From Gammaproteobacteria bacterium (GTDB lineage Bacteria > Pseudomonadota > Gammaproteobacteria > Pseudomonadales > Pseudohongiellaceae): 64,000 nt of DNA. The translations under genes and the position numbers were made by a program. The notes beneath the pieces were generated by a model. It had not been told where the DNA came from. It did not search any database and saw nothing but the letters and a program-made list of their open reading frames with translations. Shown one piece after another: positions 4,642 to 55,015 of the stretch. The first letter of the stretch is position 1, and the number at the start of each line of letters is the position of its first letter. The DNA is taken from NCBI GenBank assembly GCA_018661465.1, contig JABJIC010000017.1, positions 124,001-188,000 of the forward strand, read 5' to 3'.

Positions 4642-5661
4642 ATGAAAACCCAAATTTCCAAATTAGCCGGCATACTGGCTTTTGCTCTTGCAGGATCTGC
4701 CTATGGTCAGGTCGTCGAAATCCCACGCACTGAATGGGGAGTTCCCAATCTACAAGGTAATTGGCAACTCAAGACCGTAATGCCATTTCAGCGACCACAG
4801 GAGTTGGGCACTAAGCAAGCTTATACCGAAGAAGAGGCTCTAACGCTTGAGAGTCAAGCACAGAAAGCCGTGGAGCAAGACAATGAGCCGTTGGACCCAA
4901 ACCGTCCAGCACCGGATCTTGCTGCCCTTCCCCCAGTTGGTAACTACGATCTTTTCTGGACCGACCGTGGGATGTTCCTTCCTACTATAAACGGAGAGTT
5001 CAGGACTTCAGCGATTATCGATCCGCCTAATGGCCGTATTCCCGAACTTGTTGCAGGCTTTCAAGATCGCATGAGGGATCTTCGAGCCGCCCGCCCTGAT
5101 CGCAATGATGGACCGGAAGGCCGAGGTTTAGGAGAGCGCTGCCTGGTGGCCTTTGGCAATAGTTCAGGCCCTGTTATGTCTCCAGTTATGTATAACAGCC
5201 ACATGCAGATAGTGCAGTCTCCAGGATATGTGACTATCGTTGTAGAGATGGTTCATGATGCAAGAATCATCAAGATTAGCGATGAGCGCAGCCCCGCTTC
5301 GGAATCACACCAAAAATGGATGGGAGATTCCATAGGTCGCTGGGAAGGAGATACACTGATTGTAGAAACCAAGAATTACAATCCTTGGATTACATACCGC
5401 GGAGCTCCAACAGAAAATCTGACGGTGATAGAAACATTCCGTCGTGAAGGAGAAAACAAAGTTGTCTATGGTTTTACTGTCGATGACCCTTCCGTCTATA
5501 CCGCACAATGGACTGGAGAATATCCTCTATCCAGGATGGAAGAGCCAGTTTACGAATATGCTTGTCACGAAGGTAACTACGGAATCATAGGAATACTGGC
5601 GGGAGCCAGACGCCTGGAAGCAATGGAAGCAGCCGGCGTTGAGTTAGAAATAGCGCAGTAA
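4642..5661 (+). CDS. Secreted protein of unknown family (paralogue of the gene at 38910)
   Basis: I do not recognise a named domain. The start at 4642 follows GGAGA and gives a clean signal peptide (about 22 residues, ending SAYGQ). The mature protein opens with a tryptophan-rich GVPNLQGNW segment. Its C-terminal half carries GDSIGRWEGDTLIVETKNY and later DPSVYTAQW. The minus-strand gene at 38910-39725 has the same landmarks (DFSGIWQ, HSLGSFDGDTLVIDV, DPNVYTRPW), so the two are paralogues. Proteins of this kind are, from memory, common in acidobacteria and some marine gammaproteobacteria and remain uncharacterised. A terminator follows. An upstream start at 4576 would bury the signal peptide. 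Confidence 0.8.
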   Translation: MKTQISKLAGILAFALAGSAYGQVVEIPRTEWGVPNLQGNWQLKTVMPFQRPQELGTKQAYTEEEALTLESQAQKAVEQDNEPLDPNRPAPDLAALPPVGNYDLFWTDRGMFLPTINGEFRTSAIIDPPNGRIPELVAGFQDRMRDLRAARPDRNDGPEGRGLGERCLVAFGNSSGPVMSPVMYNSHMQIVQSPGYVTIVVEMVHDARIIKISDERSPASESHQKWMGDSIGRWEGDTLIVETKNYNPWITYRGAPTENLTVIETFRREGENKVVYGFTVDDPSVYTAQWTGEYPLSRMEEPVYEYACHEGNYGIIGILAGARRLEAMEAAGVELEIAQ

Positions 5662-5674
5662 ATATTTCTTCTTG

Positions 5675-5704
5675 TAAAAAAGGCGACCTTGGTCGCCTTT
5701 TTTT
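5675..5704 (+). terminator. Rho-independent terminator (works in both directions)
   Basis: Stem GGCGAC/GTCGCC with a CTTG loop, flanked by six A before and a run of seven T after. It lies 13 bases after the secreted-protein gene and about 40 bases past the stop of xdhC on the other strand, so its symmetry lets it end both transcripts. Confidence 0.92.
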
Positions 5705-5742
5705 ATGCTCTATTTTAATGCTCTTTCTGCCAATTTAAAGTT

Positions 5743-6717
5743 CTAGTTTTTGACCTTATGACGAACCGCTGTTACTTCCGCCATAACGGAAATTGCTATC
5801 TCAGCAGGAGTCTTGCTACTGATTTGCAAGCCAATAGGCGCATGCAGTCGTGCGATTTCCGCTGCACTAAGCCCCAATTCAGGAAGACGCTCTCTTCTGG
5901 CAGCGGAGGTTCTCTCAGACCCCATCGCTCCTATATAAAACGCTTCCGTCTTTAGCGCTTCCATTAATGCCATATCATCCACTCTAGGGTCATGGGCTAG
6001 AGCAATAATCCCACTGTAGGGATTATTAAATGACTCTCGAACTACGTCATCCGGAAGTCTGGAAATAGTTTCTACGCCATCGACATGCCAATTATCGAGA
6101 TAATTCGGCCGCGGATCACAGAGCATAACGTCATATTCCAGCGCTAGAGCCATTTCGGCTACGTACCTAGCAACATCTCCCGCACCCAGCAACAGTAGAC
6201 GATACATGGGGCTGAGACTGTGGGCCATAGAATCTTCATCAAGAACGACGGCTTCGTCACTGCTATTGGGGCTTGCAGAAATTTGGCCATTCCCTAGATC
6301 AACAATTCGACTTACGGATTTATGTTGCTCAAGGTCAGTCTTCAACCTGTCAAAGATATCCCTATTGCTTTCATTGGATTCGATGTACTCAAGTAGAACA
6401 TGAAGTTGTCCACCACAAGGTAATTTCAGTCTGGCCTGCTCTTCCGCTGTTACGCCATATTTAACAACAAAGGGTTTTTGCATTTCATCGAATTGAGATT
6501 TAAGACTTCCATCTCGAAGCTGTTCGAGAAAATCTTCTTCTATACAACCTCCAGATATTGAGCCCACTAGTTCACCCTCAACCGTGCAGGCCATCATTGC
6601 TCCCACGGGTCGTGGCGACGAGCCCCAGGTTTTCAATATGGTGCATAACCATACTGATTTCTGATCACCTAACCAGGTAGAGACGTGGCTGATTATGTGC
6701 TGCTGACTACTTAACAT
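5743..6717 (-). CDS. XdhC/CoxI family protein (molybdenum cofactor handling)
   Basis: XdhC proteins bind and modify molybdenum cofactor and insert it into xanthine dehydrogenase-type enzymes. The N-terminal CoxI-type domain (residues about 15-80) shows GSSPRPVGAMM and GSISGGCIEEDF. The C-terminal Rossmann domain begins near 170 with LLLGAGDVARYVAEMA, and DPRPNY, IALAHDPRVDD and GAMGSERTSAARRERL follow. The 324-residue length is normal for the two-domain form. No molybdenum hydroxylase or cofactor gene lies nearby, so the client enzyme must be elsewhere. It starts 58 bases after the MATE gene on the same strand and may share its transcript. Confidence 0.9.
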   Translation of the reverse strand: MLSSQQHIISHVSTWLGDQKSVWLCTILKTWGSSPRPVGAMMACTVEGELVGSISGGCIEEDFLEQLRDGSLKSQFDEMQKPFVVKYGVTAEEQARLKLPCGGQLHVLLEYIESNESNRDIFDRLKTDLEQHKSVSRIVDLGNGQISASPNSSDEAVVLDEDSMAHSLSPMYRLLLLGAGDVARYVAEMALALEYDVMLCDPRPNYLDNWHVDGVETISRLPDDVVRESFNNPYSGIIALAHDPRVDDMALMEALKTEAFYIGAMGSERTSAARRERLPELGLSAAEIARLHAPIGLQISSKTPAEIAISVMAEVTAVRHKVKN

Positions 6718-6775
6718 ACTTTTGCGATGCCTTAGCTAATAACTGGACCAAAATAAAAGAGAAATGAATTGAAAA

Positions 6776-8179
6776 CTAAAATTGCTGCAATTTCCACTTC
6801 CCTCTTCGGAAGACGAGAAAGCCTACTATACCTAGAAGTATGTCCGCAGCAAACACGGACCAAAATACCCCCGAGGGTCCCAGGTTCAATCCTAGTGCCA
6901 AACTATAGGCTAGAGGTATCTCCACTACCCAGAAGCAAAAAACATTAATCCAGGTGGGCGTCATGGTATCACCTGCACCATTGAATGCCTGTGTCAGAGC
7001 CATGCCCGCTCCCCATGCCACAAACGCAAGGCTAAAAATTCTCAGACTTTCTATGCCGTAATTTACAACTATCTCATTATCAACAAAGATCAGAATTATT
7101 GGCTGGGTGAACAACAGGATCAGCACAGAAACCAAACCCATATACATGGAATTATATTTTACGATGTACCAGACCGTTGTTTCAGCTCTATCCATCAAAC
7201 CCGCACCCAGGTTCTGGCCAACCAGAGTAGCTGCAGCGTTACTCAAACCCCAGGCTGGCAAGATGGTAAACATCACAACCCTCACCGCGATCGTATAACC
7301 AGCGACAGCCTCGCTACCAAAACTTGATACAAGTTGCATGAGAAACACCCAACTAGCTGTTCCCACCAGAAATTGAGCAACGCCACCTGTTGAAATTCGA
7401 ATTAAATGCCTCATGGTCTTTATATGAAGAATCATGTTCTGAAGGTGTAGCTGGATTCGTCCACCACCACCACAGAGATAGTACAGACCGTAGAGAACGC
7501 CTATGCCGCGTCCGATATTTGTTGCTACCGCCGCTCCAGAGAGACCCATTTCAGGAAAAGGACCATAACCATAGATGAGACAAGGGTCGAGAACGATGTT
7601 AATACAATTAGCAATTGTGAGCGCACGCATTGCCAGACTGGCATCCCCTGCTCCCCGAAAAATTCCATTTATAAGGAAGAGAAAAACGATAGTAAAACAA
7701 GAGCCAAACATTATTCTTGTGTATGTCGAACCAGCCTCGATAACAGCTTCATCGGCACCCATTAGACCCAGGATTTCTTCTGCATACATTAAACCCAGAA
7801 GACCAACAATCACCGAAACTATTAACCCCAGAATGATTGACTGTGCTGCCGCTAGAGACGCTCTTTCCGGATCCTTCTCTCCAATCCTGCGAGCGATCAA
7901 TGCAGTGGTTCCCATACTCAGACCGATTGCCACAGCGTATAAAAGAGTAATCATCGCTTCTGTAAGGCCGACGGTAGCCACAGCTTCCGCTCCCAACCCC
8001 GCCACGAAAAATATGTCGACAACTGCAAATACAGATTCCATCGCCATTTCAAGAATCATGGGTATTGCTAACAGAATTGTTACCCGCGCAATGGAGCCTT
8101 CCGTGTAATTTATTTCGGAATCACCAGCCATAGCTTGCTTAAACAAGCTCAAGGCATTTCTAAATTTAGTATTCTTCAT
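6776..8179 (-). CDS. MATE family efflux transporter
   Basis: An inner-membrane exporter that expels cationic or drug-like compounds in exchange for sodium or protons. The 467 residues contain about 12 hydrophobic segments arranged as two halves. The N-terminal half has the typical ILLAIPMILEMAMESVF and ATVGLTEAM segments. GIFRGAGDASLAM and AFNGAGDTMTP appear at equivalent places in the two halves, as expected for the internal repeat of MATE proteins. The start has no strong ribosome site. xdhC follows on the same strand. The substrate is unknown. Confidence 0.92.
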   Translation of the reverse strand: MKNTKFRNALSLFKQAMAGDSEINYTEGSIARVTILLAIPMILEMAMESVFAVVDIFFVAGLGAEAVATVGLTEAMITLLYAVAIGLSMGTTALIARRIGEKDPERASLAAAQSIILGLIVSVIVGLLGLMYAEEILGLMGADEAVIEAGSTYTRIMFGSCFTIVFLFLINGIFRGAGDASLAMRALTIANCINIVLDPCLIYGYGPFPEMGLSGAAVATNIGRGIGVLYGLYYLCGGGGRIQLHLQNMILHIKTMRHLIRISTGGVAQFLVGTASWVFLMQLVSSFGSEAVAGYTIAVRVVMFTILPAWGLSNAAATLVGQNLGAGLMDRAETTVWYIVKYNSMYMGLVSVLILLFTQPIILIFVDNEIVVNYGIESLRIFSLAFVAWGAGMALTQAFNGAGDTMTPTWINVFCFWVVEIPLAYSLALGLNLGPSGVFWSVFAADILLGIVGFLVFRRGKWKLQQF

Positions 8180-40897: not shown

Positions 40898-41362
40898 TTG
40901 AGTATTTGGATGCGGGAATCCGGTCCGGCATTTTTTACCTCCTTGAGCTTACATTCCTTGGCGATGGGGTTTGTTGTGGGAATAAATTTCGCAATAGCCC
41001 TCGGCATACTCGGCTTTATTCCAAGGTTTAACCCTAGAAGCTTTGATAAATTTTTTACGCTTCACTGGTATGCCTGCCTGCTTATATTACTGTCAGGGCT
41101 GGCGTTATTATTGGCCTATCCTGCCAAGGCGCTGACTAACCCCGTGTTTTTTGCCAAGCTGATCGCTCTCTCTTCCGCCTTACTAATCACTTTCAAATTT
41201 CAAAAGCAGTTCTTCAGTGAAGCTGCAACGGAAGCGGGAATGGCAAGCTCAAGCCTTAAACCCTGGGCGACCCTCTCCATCTTCCTTTGGGTAGCAACAA
41301 TTACTATGGGTAGATTTCTGGCATACACTCATGAAATTTTACTGGCATCTCGTTTTTTTTAG
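40898..41362 (+). CDS. Small multi-pass membrane protein, DUF6644-like
   Basis: About 154 residues with four hydrophobic segments. IWMRESGPAFFTSLSLHSLAMGFVV recalls the start of DUF6644-type units (a Ser, then a His in the first segment), and LTNPVFFAKLIALSSALL aligns with the NPVFAWK segment of the protein at 14889. The start is uncertain: TTG at 40898 or ATG at 40910 lack good ribosome sites, and the conserved N-terminus seems to extend upstream to a possible CTG near 40870. It comes 54 bases after the reductase and ends 25 bases before the next membrane gene. Confidence 0.65.
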   Translation: MSIWMRESGPAFFTSLSLHSLAMGFVVGINFAIALGILGFIPRFNPRSFDKFFTLHWYACLLILLSGLALLLAYPAKALTNPVFFAKLIALSSALLITFKFQKQFFSEAATEAGMASSSLKPWATLSIFLWVATITMGRFLAYTHEILLASRFF

Positions 41363-41387
41363 TGAAAGCCAAAGAGCCAACACGACC

Positions 41388-41894
41388 ATGATTGAATTTT
41401 TACTCAATTTTTCTCAATCCACGGGCATATTCACGTTTATGAATTCGCAGTGGGGTTGGCCTGTAGTTGAGTCATTTCACTTTCTGGGTCTTAGCATGCT
41501 GATAGGAACCGTTGGTGTGTTTGATTTAAGGCTTCTAGGGGTCGGCAAAGAAATCGAAATGGCCAGCCTACACAAACTGGTACCATTTGGGGTAGCGGGA
41601 TTTTTTCTAAATGTTATAACTGGCACTATGTTTCTAAGTAGCGCTCCCGATCAATATATTTACAATCCCGCCATTCAATCCAAGCTGTTTTTCTTGTTGC
41701 TCGCTGGCATTAACATGCTCGTTTTCTACAATACTGTCGCCGCAGAGGCTAAATCCACTCCAATGGCAAGCAATGCCCCAACTCGCGCACGAATCATCGG
41801 GGGGGTCTCTCTGCTGTGCTGGTGCGCTGTAATTGTATGCGGCCGTCTGATCACTTATTACAGACCTCCCTACCATTGGTGCCTATGGTGCTAG
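41388..41894 (+). CDS. DUF6644-like membrane protein, single unit
   Basis: 168 residues and four hydrophobic segments. WPVVESFHFLGLSMLIG, FDLRLLGVG and YNPAIQSKLFFLLLAGINML match each half of the duplicated protein at 14889. The ATG at 41388 is used; an upstream frame from 41331 overlaps the previous gene and adds no conserved residues. It probably works with the preceding small membrane protein, the two together resembling one copy of the duplicated gene. Function unknown. A conserved His in the first segment may bind heme. Confidence 0.75.
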   Translation: MIEFLLNFSQSTGIFTFMNSQWGWPVVESFHFLGLSMLIGTVGVFDLRLLGVGKEIEMASLHKLVPFGVAGFFLNVITGTMFLSSAPDQYIYNPAIQSKLFFLLLAGINMLVFYNTVAAEAKSTPMASNAPTRARIIGGVSLLCWCAVIVCGRLITYYRPPYHWCLWC

Positions 41895-41964
41895 TACAAT
41901 AGCTGATGTGATCTCCTGTTTAGTGATGGCTTTAACGCCACAAGATTAGTTGGTGGGAAATGTA

Positions 41965-42747
41965 ATGCAAGCAAGAAAGCAATTCGATTTAGGCGGTTTT
42001 AATATTCGGATTAATTGGTTGGTAGCGGTCTGCGTTCTGCTGACTGCCTCAGCCTTTGGCCGACTTGGAATCTGGCAACTGGATAGAGCAGCAGAGAAAG
42101 TCGATGCACAGCGAGTTCTCGAAGTGGAATCCAGCATAAACGCTACTGCCGTCGAAGACATCCCCGACGGCCATTTGCATCCTGCTAATACAGAGCTGTT
42201 AAACCGACATGTGGCTCTACGTGGAGAATATGTCAACGATCGCACTGTCCTGCTGCTGGCGGAATTTTTCGAGGGCATGATTGGATTTGGTGTAGTTACA
42301 CCGTTTCGACTTGCCAGCAATGGCCAACTGGTAATGGTTAGCAGAGGTTGGACCACCGGAATTCTACCAGCAGACACGCCGCCAGATTTAAGAGAGGCAG
42401 AGGGATATCAGGAAATAACGGCCCAGATATTCGTGCCTCCAGCGAATGCTAGAATAATTCCCAGCCAGGTAGATGCTTCTGTATGGCCACTGCGGATGCG
42501 AAGCCTCGAGCTAGACATTATTTCAGGAATCCTCGATGAGCCTCTATTTCCATTCGAATTGAGAATTACGGCCGGACAAGCCGGCACTCTGGTACGACAC
42601 TGGCCAGCCGTAAACGCCGATGTTAATCAGAATTTATCCTATGCAATTCAATGGTTTAGCCTGTGTTTACTGGTATTATTTGCCAGCGTTTTAGCCAGCA
42701 GTAACCTGTGGTCGCTAATTCGAGGCCCCAAGCCTTCCCAACCCTGA
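41965..42747 (+). CDS. SURF1 family cytochrome oxidase assembly protein
   Basis: SURF1 helps insert heme a into cytochrome c oxidase at the inner membrane. There are two membrane helices: residues about 17-35 (NWLVAVCVLLTASAFGRLG) and near the C-terminus (WFSLCLLVLFASVLA). Between them are the family marks LGIWQLDRAAEK, HVALRGEY, VVTPFRL, VSRGW and the C-terminal SYAIQWFS. The ATG at 41965 follows GGGA at good spacing. cox genes are not in the window, so this copy is detached from its usual cluster. Confidence 0.9.
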   Translation: MQARKQFDLGGFNIRINWLVAVCVLLTASAFGRLGIWQLDRAAEKVDAQRVLEVESSINATAVEDIPDGHLHPANTELLNRHVALRGEYVNDRTVLLLAEFFEGMIGFGVVTPFRLASNGQLVMVSRGWTTGILPADTPPDLREAEGYQEITAQIFVPPANARIIPSQVDASVWPLRMRSLELDIISGILDEPLFPFELRITAGQAGTLVRHWPAVNADVNQNLSYAIQWFSLCLLVLFASVLASSNLWSLIRGPKPSQP

Positions 42748-42922: not shown

Positions 42923-44359
42923 ATGCGTATCATATCCGTAAAATCAGTATTAGGTAGTGCAGCAACAGCGGTGGCTTTTATGCTGTCAGGCACTGTTTCA
43001 GCCCAGACTGATGAAGTCACCTTTCATAGAGATATAGAACCTATTCTGCAGCGCAGCTGTCAGAACTGCCACCGTCCCGGTGGAGCTGGACCTATGTCAC
43101 TCATCACTTTTGACGAAGTAGCACCATTTGCTGGCCTTATTGAATATAAAGTCAGCCTCCGTGACCGTGCAGGCGCTATGCCTCCGTGGTACATGGAAAA
43201 AAATGTAGGCATTCAGGATTACAAGGATGATCCATCCCTGTCTGACGCTGAAATCGCTGCCATATCTACTTGGGCTCGCGGCGGCACTCCTGAAGGAGAT
43301 GCAGCTGATGCCCCTACACCACTCGTATTTGATGACAGCCTAAAATGGAAAGCAGGTCCGCCTGATCTCATCGTAACGATGAACGATGTTACTAAGCTTG
43401 CAGGAACTCCTGACTGGTGGGGTGAGATTGACTACATTCCAACTGGCCTTACTGAAGATCGCTATGTGAAATCCGTTGAAGTCGTAGAAGTTAACGACGT
43501 GGATAATCAGGCTGGAACTGGTCGTGATACCGTTGGCGGGCGCTTCATTTTCCACCATATGATCTGGGGCACGGCGATGCTTGATGAAAATGGAGCACGC
43601 GAGTCCGGTGCCCCTTCAATTCCTTGGCCTGTTCATGAAGTTGGCCGAAACGCTGATATCTTCGACGAAGACGCTGGTCGTCTACTGAAAGCTGGTTCAG
43701 CTATCGTTTCTGACTCGGTGCACCTTCATTCAAATGGCCGCGATACAACTGGTCACCTTGAAGTTGGATTCATTTTTCACCCTGAAGACTACGAACCTAA
43801 ATACCAAAATGGCTTTAGTGCTCTTGGTAATGGTGTAGACATCAGCATCACCGGCAATGAGAAAGATCAGGAACTTCATGCCTATACTGTTCTTCAACAG
43901 CACACTAAGATCATTACTTTTGAACCTCACCTTCACGCACCGGGCGAACGCATGTGTCTGGAAGCTATTTGGGGTTATACAGTAGAGACGCTTTCCTGTG
44001 TTGGTTATGACCATAACTGGGTACGCGGTTATCCTTATGCTGACCAGGCAGCCCCTCTTCTACCGAAGGGAACTATTCTCCATATCGTTGGATACATGAA
44101 CAACACGGACTCCAATCCAAATGTTCCTGATCCACGTAACTGGCAGGGTTCTGGTAATCGTTCCGTAACCAATATGTTTATCGATCTCGGCATTCGAGTC
44201 ACTCTCAATGATGAGCAGTTCTTCGAAGCTATGGAAGAACGACGTCAGGTGCTTAACCTTGGCCCGAATGATCACGTGGTCGGTTGTCCTCTATGTCTTG
44301 CGCCGCTGGTTGCTCCAGTTGCAGAAGATGAAGAAAGCAACGAAGTCGCTGCTAACTAG
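42923..44359 (+). CDS. Secreted cytochrome c / type II copper monooxygenase fusion
   Basis: The signal peptide ends at SGTVSAQ. An N-terminal c-heme domain (about 30-125) has CQNCH (C46, C49, H50) and the likely axial Met86 in GAMPPW. The rest resembles peptidylglycine/dopamine beta-monooxygenases and keeps all copper ligands. For CuH these are H211-H212 (IFHHMIWG) and a histidine in SVHLHSNG (H267/H269). For CuM they are H336 and H338 (FEPHLHAPGERM) and Met418 (SVTNMFIDLG). Such enzymes hydroxylate a C-H bond with O2, taking electrons one at a time; the heme could supply them. A CxxC (C455, C458) lies near the end. GGGGAG precedes the start. Substrate unknown. Confidence 0.88.
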   Translation: MRIISVKSVLGSAATAVAFMLSGTVSAQTDEVTFHRDIEPILQRSCQNCHRPGGAGPMSLITFDEVAPFAGLIEYKVSLRDRAGAMPPWYMEKNVGIQDYKDDPSLSDAEIAAISTWARGGTPEGDAADAPTPLVFDDSLKWKAGPPDLIVTMNDVTKLAGTPDWWGEIDYIPTGLTEDRYVKSVEVVEVNDVDNQAGTGRDTVGGRFIFHHMIWGTAMLDENGARESGAPSIPWPVHEVGRNADIFDEDAGRLLKAGSAIVSDSVHLHSNGRDTTGHLEVGFIFHPEDYEPKYQNGFSALGNGVDISITGNEKDQELHAYTVLQQHTKIITFEPHLHAPGERMCLEAIWGYTVETLSCVGYDHNWVRGYPYADQAAPLLPKGTILHIVGYMNNTDSNPNVPDPRNWQGSGNRSVTNMFIDLGIRVTLNDEQFFEAMEERRQVLNLGPNDHVVGCPLCLAPLVAPVAEDEESNEVAAN

Positions 44360-44378
44360 GCTTCGGGAAGCGGTAATA

Positions 44379-45311
44379 ATGATCGATATAACTAGTGCGT
44401 CAATCAGCAGGTTTAAAATCCTGCTGATTGCTTCATTTCTACTGGCCTTACCCCAGTTCTCTCTCGCTGACAGCTTTCGTTTTGGTGAACATGTTGAACC
44501 GGCTTATGAAGGCTGGCGTCCTAATGCAGACGGCACTTTCAGTTTCATGTTTGGTTACATGAATGAGAACTGGGAAGAACAGCCTGACGTCCTTGTCGGT
44601 GATAGTAATTTTTTCAGCCCAGGTGATGCAGACCGCGGCCAACCCACTCATTTCCTTCCTAGGCGAAACCGTTTCACTTTTGAAGTGGTTGTTCCTTCCG
44701 ACTGGGGTGACCGTGAATTAATCTGGACACTTAATGTAAATGGTGTCGAGCGCAAGGCTTACGCCACTCTGAAAGATGATTACCTAGTAGACAATATGGT
44801 AATTGCATCGGAGACTGGCTCTCTGGGAGCAGGCACTAGTAGCCCTGAGTCCAGAGCCAATATTGCTCCCGTAGTTACTGTTCAGGGTGACGAGATTCGT
44901 ACGGCAAGAGTTGGAGAACCAATAGCAATCACGACTAACGTTGCTGATGATGGTCTTCCAGAACCCCGAAGAGAATCTACTATTTCAGCAAGCTCCTTGA
45001 TGTCACGCATGATGAGACCCCCTAGCAGGATTACAGTTGGCAAAGTTAATGGTTTGTTCTTGTCATGGAATAAGTACCGTGGTCCAGGTGAAGTCACCTT
45101 TGATCCGCCACTGCCAAAGCCATGGGAAGACACCCGAACTTCTGCCAATTCTCCATGGGGTGCTTTATGGTTACCACCGGAAATTCCTGAGGATGGCAAC
45201 TACGAAGTGACAGCTACTTTCTCTGAACCTGGCACATATATTCTTTGGTCAAGAGCTGACGACGGCGGCCTCTATAACGATGGCTACATCACAGTAAACG
45301 TTAGCGAATAG
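44379..45311 (+). CDS. Secreted protein of unknown family, tandem copy 1
   Basis: 310 residues with a signal peptide (ending FSLAD). No known domain is recognised. Landmarks are YEGWRPNADGTFSFMFGYMN, GDADRGQPTHFLPRRNRF, PSDWGDRELIW, ASETGSLGAGTSSPESRAN and a C-terminal GTYILWSRADDGGLYNDGY. The predicted fold is beta-rich, possibly two Ig-like domains. It starts 20 bases after the copper monooxygenase with GGAAG upstream, so it is in the same operon and may be its partner. A strong terminator follows, then a close copy of itself. Similar proteins occur, from memory, in acidobacteria beside cytochrome genes. Confidence 0.82.
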   Translation: MIDITSASISRFKILLIASFLLALPQFSLADSFRFGEHVEPAYEGWRPNADGTFSFMFGYMNENWEEQPDVLVGDSNFFSPGDADRGQPTHFLPRRNRFTFEVVVPSDWGDRELIWTLNVNGVERKAYATLKDDYLVDNMVIASETGSLGAGTSSPESRANIAPVVTVQGDEIRTARVGEPIAITTNVADDGLPEPRRESTISASSLMSRMMRPPSRITVGKVNGLFLSWNKYRGPGEVTFDPPLPKPWEDTRTSANSPWGALWLPPEIPEDGNYEVTATFSEPGTYILWSRADDGGLYNDGYITVNVSE

Positions 45312-45325
45312 AGATTAAAGCATGT

Positions 45326-45354
45326 AAAAAGGACGGGAAACCGTCCTTTTTTTT
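45326..45354 (+). terminator. Rho-independent terminator
   Basis: GGACGG-GAAA-CCGTCC stem-loop, preceded by five A and followed by eight T, 15 bases after the tandem copy 1 stop. It ends the copper-monooxygenase transcript before copy 2. Confidence 0.93.
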
Positions 45355-45533
45355 ATACCTCGAAAACGTGTAGAAGAAAGTTAAGGAACTCATTCAAATA
45401 AAGCTTTTAGGATTTTTTGATGTTAATCACTCTCTTGAATTCCAGCGCTGTTATTTGTATTTCTGTTGATTTTCCCAATGAAAAGTAACTAACACATCAC
45501 AAAAATTTAATACGAATGTGGAATCAAACTAAG

Positions 45534-46469
45534 ATGATTATAAAAAAATTTACTTCATTTCTTCTAATCTCAATTATAGCCAGTATTGCTGCGAGCTCTG
45601 CTTTGGCTCAAATTTCATATCGCAGTGGCGAAGAAATCGAACCGGGTTACGAAGGTTGGCGTATAAATGATGACGGGACTTACACCTTCATCTTTGGATA
45701 CATGAATGATAATTGGGAAGAGCAACCAGACATCCCTGTTGGAGATAACAATTTTTTTAGTCCCGGTGAGGCAGATAGAGGCCAACCCACTTTTTTTCTC
45801 CCAAGGCGCAATCGATTTACATTCGAAGTAACCGTTCCTTCTGACTGGGGCGATCGAGAGTTGGTTTGGGAGATCACCCATAACGGTGAGACTAATCGCG
45901 CCTACGGAACATTAGCTACCGATTACCTAATCGACAATATGGTAATCGCGTCAGAAACCGGCTCTCTGGGAGCTGGTACCAGCAGCCCTGAATCTCGAGC
46001 AAATATTGCGCCAGTGGTCACCGTGCTCGGTGAGAGTATTAACGGAGCACAGATAAGGAATGTGAGAGTAGGTGAAGAATTGCTCATCGACACCCATGTA
46101 GATGATGACGGTTTACCAAAACCCAGATCGACTAACTCAAGCAGGAATACCCCGTCTCAGGAGCGCATGATGCGCCCTCCTCGTCGTACCACTGTCGGTA
46201 AAACCAATGGTTTTTTCCTGTCATGGAATAAGTATCGCGGACCTGGGCAAGTCACCTTTGAGCCGCCACAGATAAAGCCATGGGAAGACACTCGAACGTC
46301 AGCGAATTCTCCCTGGGGAGCTCTTTGGGTTCCTCCTGAGGTGCCAGAAGATGGTAACTATCAGGTTAGGGCTATATTCGATACGCCAGGAACTTATATT
46401 CTCTGGGCTCGCGGTGATGATGGCGGTCTTTATCACGACCAATATGTCACTGTGAACGTAAGGCCATAA
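45534..46469 (+). CDS. Secreted protein of unknown family, tandem copy 2
   Basis: A close paralogue of the gene at 44379 over its full length. Shared parts include YEGWRINDDGTYTFIFGYMN, FSPGEADRGQPTFFLPRRNRF, PSDWGDRELVW, ASETGSLGAGTSSPESRAN and GGLYHDQYVTVNV. Most substitutions fall in the linker around residue 205 (PRSTNSSRNTPSQ). The start at 45534 gives a signal peptide ending SSALAQ; ATG at 45516 is possible. It stands beyond the terminator with its own AT-rich 180-base upstream region, so it can be controlled separately. The duplication looks local. Confidence 0.82.
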   Translation: MIIKKFTSFLLISIIASIAASSALAQISYRSGEEIEPGYEGWRINDDGTYTFIFGYMNDNWEEQPDIPVGDNNFFSPGEADRGQPTFFLPRRNRFTFEVTVPSDWGDRELVWEITHNGETNRAYGTLATDYLIDNMVIASETGSLGAGTSSPESRANIAPVVTVLGESINGAQIRNVRVGEELLIDTHVDDDGLPKPRSTNSSRNTPSQERMMRPPRRTTVGKTNGFFLSWNKYRGPGQVTFEPPQIKPWEDTRTSANSPWGALWVPPEVPEDGNYQVRAIFDTPGTYILWARGDDGGLYHDQYVTVNVRP

Positions 46470-46497
46470 ACCGGTAAGAGGGTTTCCGGACAAGCTT

Positions 46498-47082
46498 TTA
46501 GGGTTGGTCTTCTTCCTGAAGCTCTATGGTGAAGGGCGGATCGTAACTGGGTGGATCTTGATTCAGAATAATATTAGTTCGCGGAGGTGTTACGAACTGA
46601 GTGTCAGGACCGCCATTTCTCATCATCAGCCTTAGCTCTTCGGCCTCCTTCATTACTGAAGGTTCGACAGCATCAGCACCGAATGCGAAGCTGAAACTTC
46701 CCCGAATCAATAGGTCATTAATACCTAAGATCGCCCAGTCCGCTGTGTAGTAGACAGCTTTCTCTAGCTGCGGCAGCTCTAGGCTGTAATCACCCTTCGC
46801 TCGTGGGTTATATCGGAAGTTTATATCCACCCAATCCCGCTCATCATTTCTCAGCGTTAATTTCACCAGCCGAACGTTACGAGGGAAATTCAAACCTAGG
46901 TTAGCCGGGGCTGAAGCAAGCACAGAATCATCATTTGGTGTGGTTTCTGTTTCCTCAACAATTCCTGTAACATCCGCTGCGGGTGGATAATGAGGGCTTC
47001 TGGACTGCTGTGCATACACTGCATTCCCTGCCAAGAGAATCAGTGATGTTATGGCAACATGACAAGGGATTGAAAACTTCAT
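46498..47082 (-). CDS. Secreted CopC-like fold protein without copper ligands, type A
   Basis: The start at 47082 has GGAAG upstream and gives a signal peptide ending AVYAQ. The core follows the CopC order: PNDDSVLASAPANLGLNF, VRLVKLTLRNDE, YYTADWAILGINDLLIRGSF, FAFG. In CopC the mature protein starts with His and has an Asp-x-His in the WxVxxxDGH segment; here the mature start is Gln and that segment reads WAILGIND, so the copper site is missing. A C-terminal tail of about 60 residues, rich in Pro, is added. It converges with tandem copy 2, 28 bases apart. It is perhaps a structural or partner protein. Confidence 0.72.
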   Translation of the reverse strand: MKFSIPCHVAITSLILLAGNAVYAQQSRSPHYPPAADVTGIVEETETTPNDDSVLASAPANLGLNFPRNVRLVKLTLRNDERDWVDINFRYNPRAKGDYSLELPQLEKAVYYTADWAILGINDLLIRGSFSFAFGADAVEPSVMKEAEELRLMMRNGGPDTQFVTPPRTNIILNQDPPSYDPPFTIELQEEDQP

Positions 47083-47186
47083 AACTCTTCCAAGCACTAA
47101 AACTACCCAAATGGTCAGCGAAACCGACGACGAATTTTACAATCAGCCAGGCTATTAATCTAGCTGTATACGAGACATCTACACAT

Positions 47187-47984
47187 ATGCAAGATTCTGA
47201 TTTACCTAGTATTTTAACAGAGCTGAAAAAAAGCGGAAGTAATACAGCGACATTTGGGGAAGAATGGTCCCAGGGTCGCTCTGCATTCGGTGGCATCTCA
47301 TCAGCCTTTGCATCCACTGCTATGGGAAAATTGGTGGATTCGAAGAGCCCTATACGCTCACTAATGGTGTCATTCGTTGCCCCCCTGCCCCCCGGGGAAT
47401 TCAGCGTCGACAGTGTACTTCAGCGAAAGGGCAAAAATGTTGCACAATGTGCTGCCTCTGTAATTTCAAATCAGCAGCTATGTCTTCAGGCTATGGCTGC
47501 ATTTGGTAATTCCAGAGAAGGATTTTCAGTCGAACCACTAGTTGAATTTAACCCTATTCCTCGAGAGCAAGGAGTGCAATTTTCCGATCATGCGAAGCGA
47601 CTTCCAAGCTTTCTAAGATTCTTCGAAGGAAGTTGGGTTGGTGGCGGCATGCCTTTCGCTGGTAAATTTCAACCACAGCTAAATATGTGGGTAAAACATA
47701 AAGCAGATATGAGTAACTTCCCGGTAGAGAAAATCATCACCTTGGCTGACATTCCACCACCGGTAATCCTTACCCATTTCAGCAAACCGCCGGTTCCTTC
47801 GAGCTCGCTTAGCTGGTCACTGGAATTTGTTATTCCTCCACAACAAATTGAGAGCGAATGGTTTTATCTCGAGTTCAATACAGAGGCAGCTGGGAATGGT
47901 TATACCCAGCAATCGGGGAAAATATTCGATGAAACAGGCCAACTTTGCGCTCTGTCCCGACAATGCATGGTATATTTTGGCTGA
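47187..47984 (+). CDS. Acyl-CoA thioesterase-like protein (double hot-dog)
   Basis: 265 residues. The N-terminal WSQGRSAFGGISSAFASTAM and RSLMVSFVAPLPPGEFSVDS, and the C-terminal LSWSLEFVIPPQQIESEWF and TQQSGKIFDETGQLCALSRQ, match the thioesterase-like superfamily with two hot-dog units (TesB-type). It would release fatty acids from acyl-CoA. It stands in the middle of the copper/cytochrome block without an obvious metabolic link. No signal peptide. Confidence 0.85.
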   Translation: MQDSDLPSILTELKKSGSNTATFGEEWSQGRSAFGGISSAFASTAMGKLVDSKSPIRSLMVSFVAPLPPGEFSVDSVLQRKGKNVAQCAASVISNQQLCLQAMAAFGNSREGFSVEPLVEFNPIPREQGVQFSDHAKRLPSFLRFFEGSWVGGGMPFAGKFQPQLNMWVKHKADMSNFPVEKIITLADIPPPVILTHFSKPPVPSSSLSWSLEFVIPPQQIESEWFYLEFNTEAAGNGYTQQSGKIFDETGQLCALSRQCMVYFG

Positions 47985-48097
47985 ATTCGGCAGATAACAA
48001 TTCCTATAGGACGCATGTAGAGCTTCGAATTGCCAGACAAGGCGATCTCCTAGTAGTATCTAAATATGTTTTCAAACATAAATTTTTGGTTTTTAAA

Positions 48098-48583
48098 TTG
48101 AAAAATAAATTCATCAACTACTGTAATTTGCTTCTGTTATCAGCCCTGCTCTTATCCGGCAACTCGATGGCACAGCATAGCCATGGCGTACTAACTCCTG
48201 GCGTAACTTTTCCACCGGACGATTCAGTCCTCAGTGAATCCCCCAGAATGATAACCATGAGCTTTCGGGTAGATGTTAGCTTGTTAAAATTGGCACTTTA
48301 TACAGCCGATGAGAAATGGATAAATATAGGCTTCCAATATACTCCGGATAACTATACTCACAGCTATGTTTTCCCGATTCCTGGTGAATTAGCCGCTTCG
48401 GAATATTACATCGCCCGCTGGTCTGTCACCGACGAGAGACGTCGCTTACTAAATGGCGAATTCAAGTTTGCATTTGGAGATGGGGCAATACCACCATCTG
48501 AGACAATAGAGTCACTGGTAAGTGATCGCGTAGAAGTGCTGCCGTCGACAGGGTCATACCGAATCGGCAGAGATCAAAACTAG
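48098..48583 (+). CDS. Secreted CopC-like fold protein without copper ligands, type B
   Basis: With a TTG start at 48098 the N-terminus is a clean signal peptide (ending GNSMAQ) and the mature protein begins with a His-rich QHSHG. The CopC order follows: PPDDSVLSESPRMITMSF, SLLKLALYTADEKWINIG, YYIARWSVTDERRRLLNGEF, FAFG. The DGH copper motif is replaced by DER. It resembles the gene at 46498 more than true CopC. An alternative ATG at 47945, inside the thioesterase gene, would add 51 residues in front of the signal peptide and is less likely. No clear ribosome site for TTG. Confidence 0.68.
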   Translation: MKNKFINYCNLLLLSALLLSGNSMAQHSHGVLTPGVTFPPDDSVLSESPRMITMSFRVDVSLLKLALYTADEKWINIGFQYTPDNYTHSYVFPIPGELAASEYYIARWSVTDERRRLLNGEFKFAFGDGAIPPSETIESLVSDRVEVLPSTGSYRIGRDQN

Positions 48584-54637: not shown

Positions 54638-55015
54638 TTAAGATTCTGGCTTGACCTCAAAACTATAGGAGTTGGTTACTGTATGGCCATCGGCGCCGAT
54701 TACTGCCCAGTTAACCGTAAACTTTCCCGGGTGCATTCCCGGCGTTTCGATAGAATATGCGGCTTTCGTTTGATCTGAAACTTCAAAGTTTGTAGGCATC
54801 TCATGACCTACGCCCATCAGCTCCAATTTGATCAGCTTTACCTCAGCGGTAAATACCAGATCAAGCTTGGCCGGTAAGCTGGTAACTACAGACTCATCTG
54901 CAGGCGTCGATTCCTTTAGGCCGGTATGGGCCGAGGCTTGCATCGAAAACGATAAGCTAGCCAACAGAACGACGATAGCTCTTGCCATAAAATTGAATGT
55001 GCTAGAAGAATTCAT
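54638..55015 (-). CDS. copC: Copper-binding protein CopC
   Basis: A periplasmic copper carrier, 125 residues before processing. The signal peptide ends at QASA, so the mature protein begins with His30, the first ligand of the Cu(II) histidine brace. Asp109 and His111 in WAVIGADGH complete the site. The fold marks ESTPADESV, LDLVFTAEVKLIKLELMG and SYSFEV are all present. GAGGA lies 6 bases before the start. It forms an operon with copD. It differs from the two CopC-like proteins at 46498 and 48098, which lack these ligands. Confidence 0.92.
   Translation of the reverse strand: MNSSSTFNFMARAIVVLLASLSFSMQASAHTGLKESTPADESVVTSLPAKLDLVFTAEVKLIKLELMGVGHEMPTNFEVSDQTKAAYSIETPGMHPGKFTVNWAVIGADGHTVTNSYSFEVKPES

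Follow-up and report, generated by a model that had tools for sequence, protein, structure and literature searches.

Peptidylglycine alpha-hydroxylating monooxygenase (PHM) and dopamine beta-hydroxylase (DBH) are the textbook two-copper hydroxylases, in which the CuM site binds oxygen and hydroxylates and the CuH site relays electrons from ascorbate; the transfer of single electrons between the distant coppers is still debated. DBH, which is fed by ascorbate, also has a DOMON domain. For the bacterial relatives of these enzymes we know of no established reductant. The subject here is a protein of this kind with a heme domain of its own, encoded in a 64,000-nucleotide stretch of a Gammaproteobacteria bacterium (hereafter 'the window'; assembly GCA_018661465.1, contig JABJIC010000017.1, positions 124,001 to 188,000). 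The open reading frame (ORF) at 42923–44359 on the plus strand specifies 478 amino acids and joins a c-type cytochrome domain to a dicopper domain predicted to have the PHM/DBH fold; it is referred to as the fusion. The protein is probably a periplasmic or secreted dicopper hydroxylase of the PHM/DBH kind, fed by cytochrome c rather than ascorbate, which carries its own electron donor and is served by a dedicated partner, the satellite, encoded next to it.

The copper folds of copper nitrite reductases and lytic polysaccharide monooxygenases (LPMOs) are unrelated to that of the fusion. The principle proposed here, by which a partner delivers electrons to copper, is nevertheless shared with them: it is seen in copper nitrite reductases linked to redox partners and in bacterial LPMOs reduced by c-type cytochromes, as set out in two papers (PMC9358711, PMC8981238). 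Phages are known to carry pieces of copper redox enzymes, for example amoC, nirK and norB, according to two others (PMC8115048, PMC7674155). The present case extends to viral DNA, as described below. For that comparison, pmoC is reportedly also found on phages. All of these phage genes encode membrane subunits or denitrification enzymes, unlike the fusion, and passages of PMC8115048 on such genes mention no heme-dicopper fusion. A search of the open-access literature, covering top-ranked results and leaving preprints and most subscription papers outside its scope, returned no description of such a fusion in bacteria or phages.

The fusion opens with a stretch resembling a signal peptide (judged by eye), which suggests export. 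A heme-c attachment motif, CQNCH (C46-x-x-C49-H50), occupies residues 46–50 (43058–43072), and Met86 (43178–43180), within an M-P-P motif, is a candidate second axial heme ligand. The predicted CuH ligands are H211-H212 (43553–43558) and H267 (43721–43723), and those of CuM are the HxH motif H336-L-H338 (43928–43936) and M418 (44174–44176), all on the plus strand. These assignments were based on ligand alignments and, for the HH and HxH motifs, also on the match of a paralog profile to DBH. The order HH...H / HxH...M is that of PHM, with which the structural model of the fusion also shares its fold; the fusion differs from PHM in its N-terminal c-type heme domain, in the bacterial and viral setting of its genes and in missing the residues that bind the peptide carboxylate in PHM.

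Pfam recognized a weak similarity to cytochrome c alone (score 20.3, cut-off 27), its copper monooxygenase models gave no match to the window fusion at E <= 1, and a single-sequence search of the PDB found no DBH or PHM relative. One such model, Cu2_monoox_C (PF03712), matched four of the 17 paralogs scanned from the source genome at E <= 0.1. When 17 of the paralogs were combined into a profile, the best relative of solved structure was DBH (4zel, E = 1.4e-6), with the HH pair, the next H and the HxH motif aligned; the cytochrome c domain takes the N-terminal place in the fusion. An AlphaFold 2 model was built from a deeper alignment of 99 rows (the window protein, 20 bacterial sequences and 78 from viral contigs), and reached a predicted local distance difference test score (pLDDT) of 75.7 and a predicted template modelling score of 0.72. 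When this model was submitted to Foldseek, ranks 1–30 of the PDB matches were all PHM or DBH (prob 1.00, E from 2e-8 to 5e-6), with template modelling scores by target up to 0.59. The reading as a heme-copper fusion, first offered in a preliminary description of this DNA as a c-type heme joined to a PHM/DBH-type domain in one secreted protein, is therefore well supported by profile, predicted fold and ligand conservation.

The source genome (3.26 Mb, 37 contigs) contains 18 fusion loci, recorded as 20 match rows because two loci were split. H211, H212, H267 and M418 were retained in all 18 paralogs and H336 and H338 in 17, while CxxCH and MPP were visible in every row. Similarly, among 78 fusion ORFs from loci in named genomes, the copper ligands were retained in 76 to 78 (the remainder being gaps and one X), and C46, C49 and H50 in 76 each (the remainder being gaps and one L). 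The four heme-domain residues C46, C49, H50 and M86 and the six copper ligands were invariant over the 99-row alignment. The preliminary description had counted H269 among an intact set of copper ligands; the six positions above stood, but H269 did not, because histidine occurs there in only 7 of the 18 own paralogs and is otherwise Y, F, T or V.

The satellite gene (44379–45311, plus strand) begins 19 nucleotides after the fusion and its product has a signal-like start. It is followed by a second satellite (45534–46469, plus strand), which was correctly identified beforehand as a duplicate of the first, the two products being 69% identical. Satellite 1 had no Pfam match above cut-off and a sub-threshold match to YtkA only, satellite 2 had no Pfam match, and a satellite profile searched against the PDB gave no convincing relative (best E = 0.35). 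An 11-pair hairpin in the first codons of satellite 1 (44401–44430, plus strand) was listed by a terminator scan, the total of which was no more than expected by chance.

Linkage between the two genes was examined in several samples. In four related genomes, merging of rows reduced 48 satellite matches to 42 places and 99 fusion matches to 90 places, and a same-strand fusion lay within 700 bp of the satellite at all 42 places, where about 0.40 would be expected from a rough estimate assuming uniform placement. The fusion was upstream at 30 of these and downstream at 12; therefore, the linkage has outlasted changes of gene order. In a second genus of the family, a same-strand fusion lay beside each of nine satellite places, judged by coordinates. 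The named genomes yielded a set of 80 loci, chosen as the closest to the satellite in sequence. These loci, which come mostly from one clade and are not independent rows, belong to metagenome-assembled or single-cell genomes labelled OM182, Pseudohongiella, SAR86, Gammaproteobacteria, Pseudomonadales or Proteobacteria; the fusion was immediately upstream in 78 of these loci, with a gap of at most 36 nucleotides in 70, and two satellites were present in 16. Among the eight fusion-satellite pairs of the source genome, the distance matrices of the two proteins correlated at r = 0.96 in a mirror-tree comparison, a value equalled in none of 20000 permutations. The product of 44379–45311 is a true partner of the fusion.

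The satellite was present in 37 of 37 genomes of the same genus, in six of six of the second genus and in none of three of a third, and the three genomes of the third genus also had no fusion match in a search of the order. It was found in none of 21 genomes from other families of the order, and in one of 397 genomes sampled across the phylum, this being the source genome itself. The partnership concerns mainly short fusions: a same-strand satellite accompanied one of 28 long-frame fusions (at least 565 amino acids) against 41 of 61 shorter ones. Second pieces and fragments had been removed by hand for this test, which left 89 of 99 fusion rows and 43 of 48 satellite rows. The single long-frame fusion with a satellite matches only from query residue 26 onward; it is probably a short form whose reading frame happens to extend further.

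Long and short forms were also distinguished within the source genome, where the short paralogs measure about 440–490 amino acids and six long ones carry a redoxin-like stretch at the N-terminus; the Pfam families AhpC-TSA and Redoxin were each detected in five of the 17 paralogs scanned. By eye, this stretch (at L040, L043–L046 and in the viral ORF L242:5259-5960) seems to be without the CxxC or peroxidatic cysteines on which redoxins rely, and may be structural. Fusion matches were obtained from all 41 genomes of the genus searched, with 2 to 33 rows each. In wider samples, three of 397 genomes in the phylum sample had a match at E <= 1e-20, the source genome included, and 34 of 390 did in the order sample. 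These larger searches, like that for the satellite in the phylum sample, scored the best four or five candidates per genome, so that copy numbers within them are not counts. The strongest short-form matches in the order sample were restricted to the source family, and those that the search listed for the order's remaining families had open frames of at least 580 amino acids. Neither fusion nor satellite was found on plasmids by tblastn. The fusion family is expanded in bacteria of the OM182/Pseudohongiella type. At L040 (contig C33 of the source genome), G025:C1:1833463-1847043, G012:C2:1794506-1802287, G029:C23 and G027:C1, between two and five fusions stand in tandem with a single satellite, and a long-frame fusion lies on the opposite strand.

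Copies of the fusion also occur on viral contigs, which is new here. Two closer sets of paralogs were used to scan IMG/VR and returned 103 and 252 confirmed stretches, respectively; 80 loci were kept from each, on 127 distinct contigs from 113 metagenomes, with some contigs holding more than one locus. When the window protein was used as the query, one locus was added, L152, which is 72% identical and is flanked by an endolysin and a protein with a head-closure match (E = 3e-6); a NifU/IscU-like gene (L152:3469-3849) also lies beside this window-type fusion. There were 156 viral loci in all (L152–L307), 110 of them with at least two fusion-like ORFs if split ones are included. The fusions often stood in tandem, the A form first and the B form second, and a small cytochrome c gene was present in 24 loci. 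Ligands were counted in 233 of 272 fusion-like ORFs (395–560 amino acids, no X, no stop; 39 omitted), comprising 129 A and 104 B forms and 130 distinct proteins. C46, C49, H50, M86, H211, H212, H267, H336 and H338 were present in all 233 and M418 in 232, with one gap; the position of H269 held F, Y or T in all but one.

The surroundings of many of these loci were characteristic of phages. The A+B pair at L247:3959-6467 is surrounded by genes for head maturation protease, major head protein, tail tube and UvsY, and elsewhere tail lysozyme, ribonucleotide reductase, DNA helicase, thymidylate synthase, primase, SbcCD-like nuclease and tail fibre genes were found. We take these families to be T4-type. 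Of seven structural or T4-core families, at least one occurred in the examined flank of 85 of the 156 loci, and any of the families looked for in 128, leaving 28 with none; among those 28, L152, L250 and L254 have phage-type neighbours, and a major head protein of T4 type is encoded in the records of L173 and L254. That protein was found in six of 33 chosen long records and gave no match in the other 27, all 33 being linear and possibly fragments. The possibility that the contigs are misfiled bacterial DNA was rejected by the head, tail, lysis, recombination and nucleotide genes for the loci examined; a viral origin is established for loci with hallmark genes and unproven for the rest. One A and one B protein had no tblastn match in 50,697 deposited phage records, nor did the A and B proteins searched fall into a PHROG family.

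Best matches of viral ORFs to proteins of the source genome or the sampled bacteria reached 77% identity over 425 amino acids (median 67%). In a tree of 64 rows, phage A proteins fell in one well-supported clade with the A-type paralogs of the source genome and two proteins of the second genus, and three own paralogs sat among the phage rows with uneven support. Phage B proteins grouped with the redoxin-type paralogs of the source genome (100/94 with L044), and L153, which retains the long N-terminus, branched first among them. The phage label required four changes on the tree (bootstrap range 4–5). Since the bacterial sample came almost wholly from one order and the program flagged long branches, closer bacterial sources may exist elsewhere and the direction of transfer can be suggested only. 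The viral copies are under purifying selection: among pairs restricted to 80–97% identity, the median ratio of nonsynonymous to synonymous substitution rates was 0.078 for A forms (570 pairs, 76 distinct proteins; 34 saturated pairs dropped) and 0.09 for B forms (785 pairs, 54 distinct proteins; 21 saturated pairs dropped), with a maximum of 0.206.

In one phage lineage, the B gene has been divided naturally into two ORFs, one for a heme-domain protein and one for a copper-domain protein. The separate heme-domain ORF was seen in L235, L236, L238, L242, L243 and L246, and the two ORFs are adjacent or nearly so. In L242, the one locus read base by base, the first ORF (5259–5960) contains the N-terminal stretch and the heme domain, and the copper-domain ORF, running from 5953 to 6897, overlaps it; both ORFs have signal-like starts of their own (by eye).

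The other genes near the window fusion were less constant companions. Upstream on the plus strand lie two overlapping DUF6644/CopD-like proteins (40898–41894; in 35 of the 80 named loci) and a SURF1-family protein (41950–42747; in 36 of 80), all identified by Pfam. SURF1 was considered as a marker of a cytochrome oxidase cluster and rejected, as a Pfam scan of ten window proteins showed none. Between the satellites there is a terminator-like hairpin with a T run (45326–45351, plus strand; -16.2 kcal/mol, z -4.9), which was not listed by a consensus terminator scan. Beyond satellite 2 are a CopC-like protein on the minus strand (46498–47079), a 4HBT-type acyl-CoA thioesterase on the plus strand (47187–47984; Pfam, a neighbour in 39 of 80 loci) and a second CopC-like protein on the plus strand whose start codon is uncertain (48020–48583). 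A single transcript for the whole block had been suggested; at most the fusion and satellite 1 would share one, given that the hairpin follows, the nearer CopC-like gene is on the minus strand and the thioesterase precedes the second.

Both CopC-like products matched the Pfam CopC domain just above cut-off. They had been described as CopC-fold proteins without copper ligands, and the canonical D-x-H copper pair is indeed absent from both, judged by eye and from a weak alignment (E = 0.18), but the product of 48020–48583 has histidines near its presumed mature N-terminus (AQHSHG). A canonical CopC, with presumed N-terminal His and DGH (ADGH) intact, lies about 6 kb from this degenerate pair (54638–55015, minus strand). 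CopC-like genes were present in 40 of the 80 named loci and beside two of eight satellite modules in the source genome, and all 38 of those that came directly after a satellite faced the other way. Therefore, while the preliminary description had inferred that the secreted and CopC-fold proteins after the fusion are partners, which was borne out for the first satellite, CopC-like proteins were rejected as general partners on grounds of linkage. At L035:3255-3773, a CopC-like gene directly follows another own fusion-satellite module on the same strand, unlike in the window, and may have a local role there. Among 20 chosen neighbours of five other fusion loci in the source genome there were PQQ dehydrogenases (at L037, L039 and L042), a GMC oxidoreductase with a small subunit of gluconate dehydrogenase (L040) and a molybdenum oxidoreductase with cytochrome c (L041).

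These observations can be assembled into a working mechanism. The c-type heme domain, presumably ligated by His and Met, would be reduced by the cytochrome c pool of the periplasm or by an adjoining dehydrogenase, and would pass electrons one at a time to CuH (H211, H212, H267). From CuH, they would complete the activation of oxygen at CuM (H336, H338, M418), which would then hydroxylate an organic substrate at a C-H bond. Ascorbate would thus be replaced by the built-in heme. A fused heme would be superfluous if ascorbate supplied the electrons, periplasmic-type dehydrogenases and cytochromes lie near some paralogs, and the divided forms remain side by side; therefore, the simplest route leads from the cytochrome c pool through the heme and CuH to CuM, and the role proposed for the heme is strengthened by the natural split. 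The satellite would be a dedicated partner, and our guess is that it most likely presents the substrate or provides anchoring by surface attachment.

Several results weigh against parts of this interpretation. The profile from the 99-row alignment recovered DBH in the PDB only at E = 0.052. A first AlphaFold 2 model, from an alignment of 48 close relatives, was poor (pLDDT 51) and its Foldseek matches were unspecific, with PHM at ranks 23, 30, 44 and 47 of 50; both defects were mended in the later model because its alignment was deeper. Even there, residues 81–90, which include Met86, have low confidence (pLDDT 51). One redoxin-type paralog, L040:13815-15521, has R and N in place of H336 and H338 with its heme motif intact, and is possibly a heme-only derivative. 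The residues that bind the peptide carboxylate in PHM are not conserved in the family and differ between subfamilies. The satellite was present at 42 of 90 fusion places in the four relatives, about half being without it, and no satellite-like ORF was found in the 156 viral loci, whose flanks span a few kb; the partner is therefore not needed everywhere. A viral scan with the satellite profile also found none, confirmation in that scan being solely against the window's own satellite. At L072:7782-7935 and L100:7697-7986, the satellite stands in its usual position with no fusion between it and SURF1 in the DNA examined, through either real loss or assembly collapse. Finally, Pfam detected no redoxin in L242, and its heme and copper parts at sub-threshold level only, so that the label 'redoxin-like' for that locus comes from its resemblance to the long forms.

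Other explanations draw on the same evidence. The fusion might reduce oxygen or another oxidant without any substrate, acting as a small oxidase of the periplasm that consumes electrons from cytochrome c in protection from oxygen stress or to re-oxidize the cytochrome pool. The dehydrogenases adjoining some paralogs, the SURF1 gene and the variability at the PHM substrate-binding positions would suit this role; however, 18 loci in a single genome, with subfamily-specific residues near the copper ligands, look more like adaptation to different substrates, and both copper sites are retained as in the hydroxylating enzymes. We consider such an oxidase unlikely. It is somewhat harder still to favour a heme domain that senses, docks or dimerizes, with the copper sites fed by a diffusible donor. 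Heme and copper domains do exist as separate proteins in one phage lineage, yet these ORFs stay adjacent or nearly so and overlap in L242, the heme motif and Met86 are constant among the 233 viral ORFs, and the fusion is retained by every one of the 18 own paralogs.

The CopC-like, CopD-like and SURF1 genes surrounding the window copy, together with the same-strand CopC-like gene at L035, bring to mind a non-catalytic protein for copper storage, delivery or sensing on a PHM fold, loaded by its CopC/CopD-like neighbours. This is improbable, given that CopC-like genes accompany half of the named loci and a quarter of the own modules, that the window pair is without D-x-H, and that neither copper site has been lost from the viral copies, nor has the heme. 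A true bacterial peptidylglycine amidating enzyme is very improbable indeed, even though the fold and all six copper ligands agree with PHM. Arg240, Asn316 and Tyr318 of PHM, which correspond to positions 334 (two before H336), 420 and 422 (two and four after M418), are replaced by E, Q or L, by I, H or F, and by L, W or A, respectively, and peptide amidation was rejected on this basis; there was also no lyase match among nine window proteins scanned with Pfam, no wider search for a PAL lyase having been made. As these residues are absent and vary with subfamily, glycine-extended peptides are probably not the substrates, which probably differ from one paralog to another.

For the cytochrome-c-fed hydroxylase, which we continue to prefer, the meaning lies first in its chemistry: the reductant is apparently built in, and the fused, redoxin-fused and split natural forms allow tests of the electron path. 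The strict partnership with the satellite points to an unnamed protein family with a role in this chemistry. A wider proposal, whose merits we see as evenly balanced, is that phages and hosts share a class of self-contained, cytochrome-c-driven dicopper hydroxylases. Marine bacteria of the OM182/Pseudohongiella type would run many, the short forms commonly with the partner, and T4-type phages would have captured an A+B pair, sometimes with a small cytochrome c, to be run in the host periplasm during infection, where it would feed on or alter what the cell is able to oxidize, or change the cell surface. With the phage copies, the redox enzymes known from phages would come to include a soluble heme-copper oxygenase, and, because the viral copies are under strong purifying selection, the enzyme is probably of importance when marine bacteria are infected.

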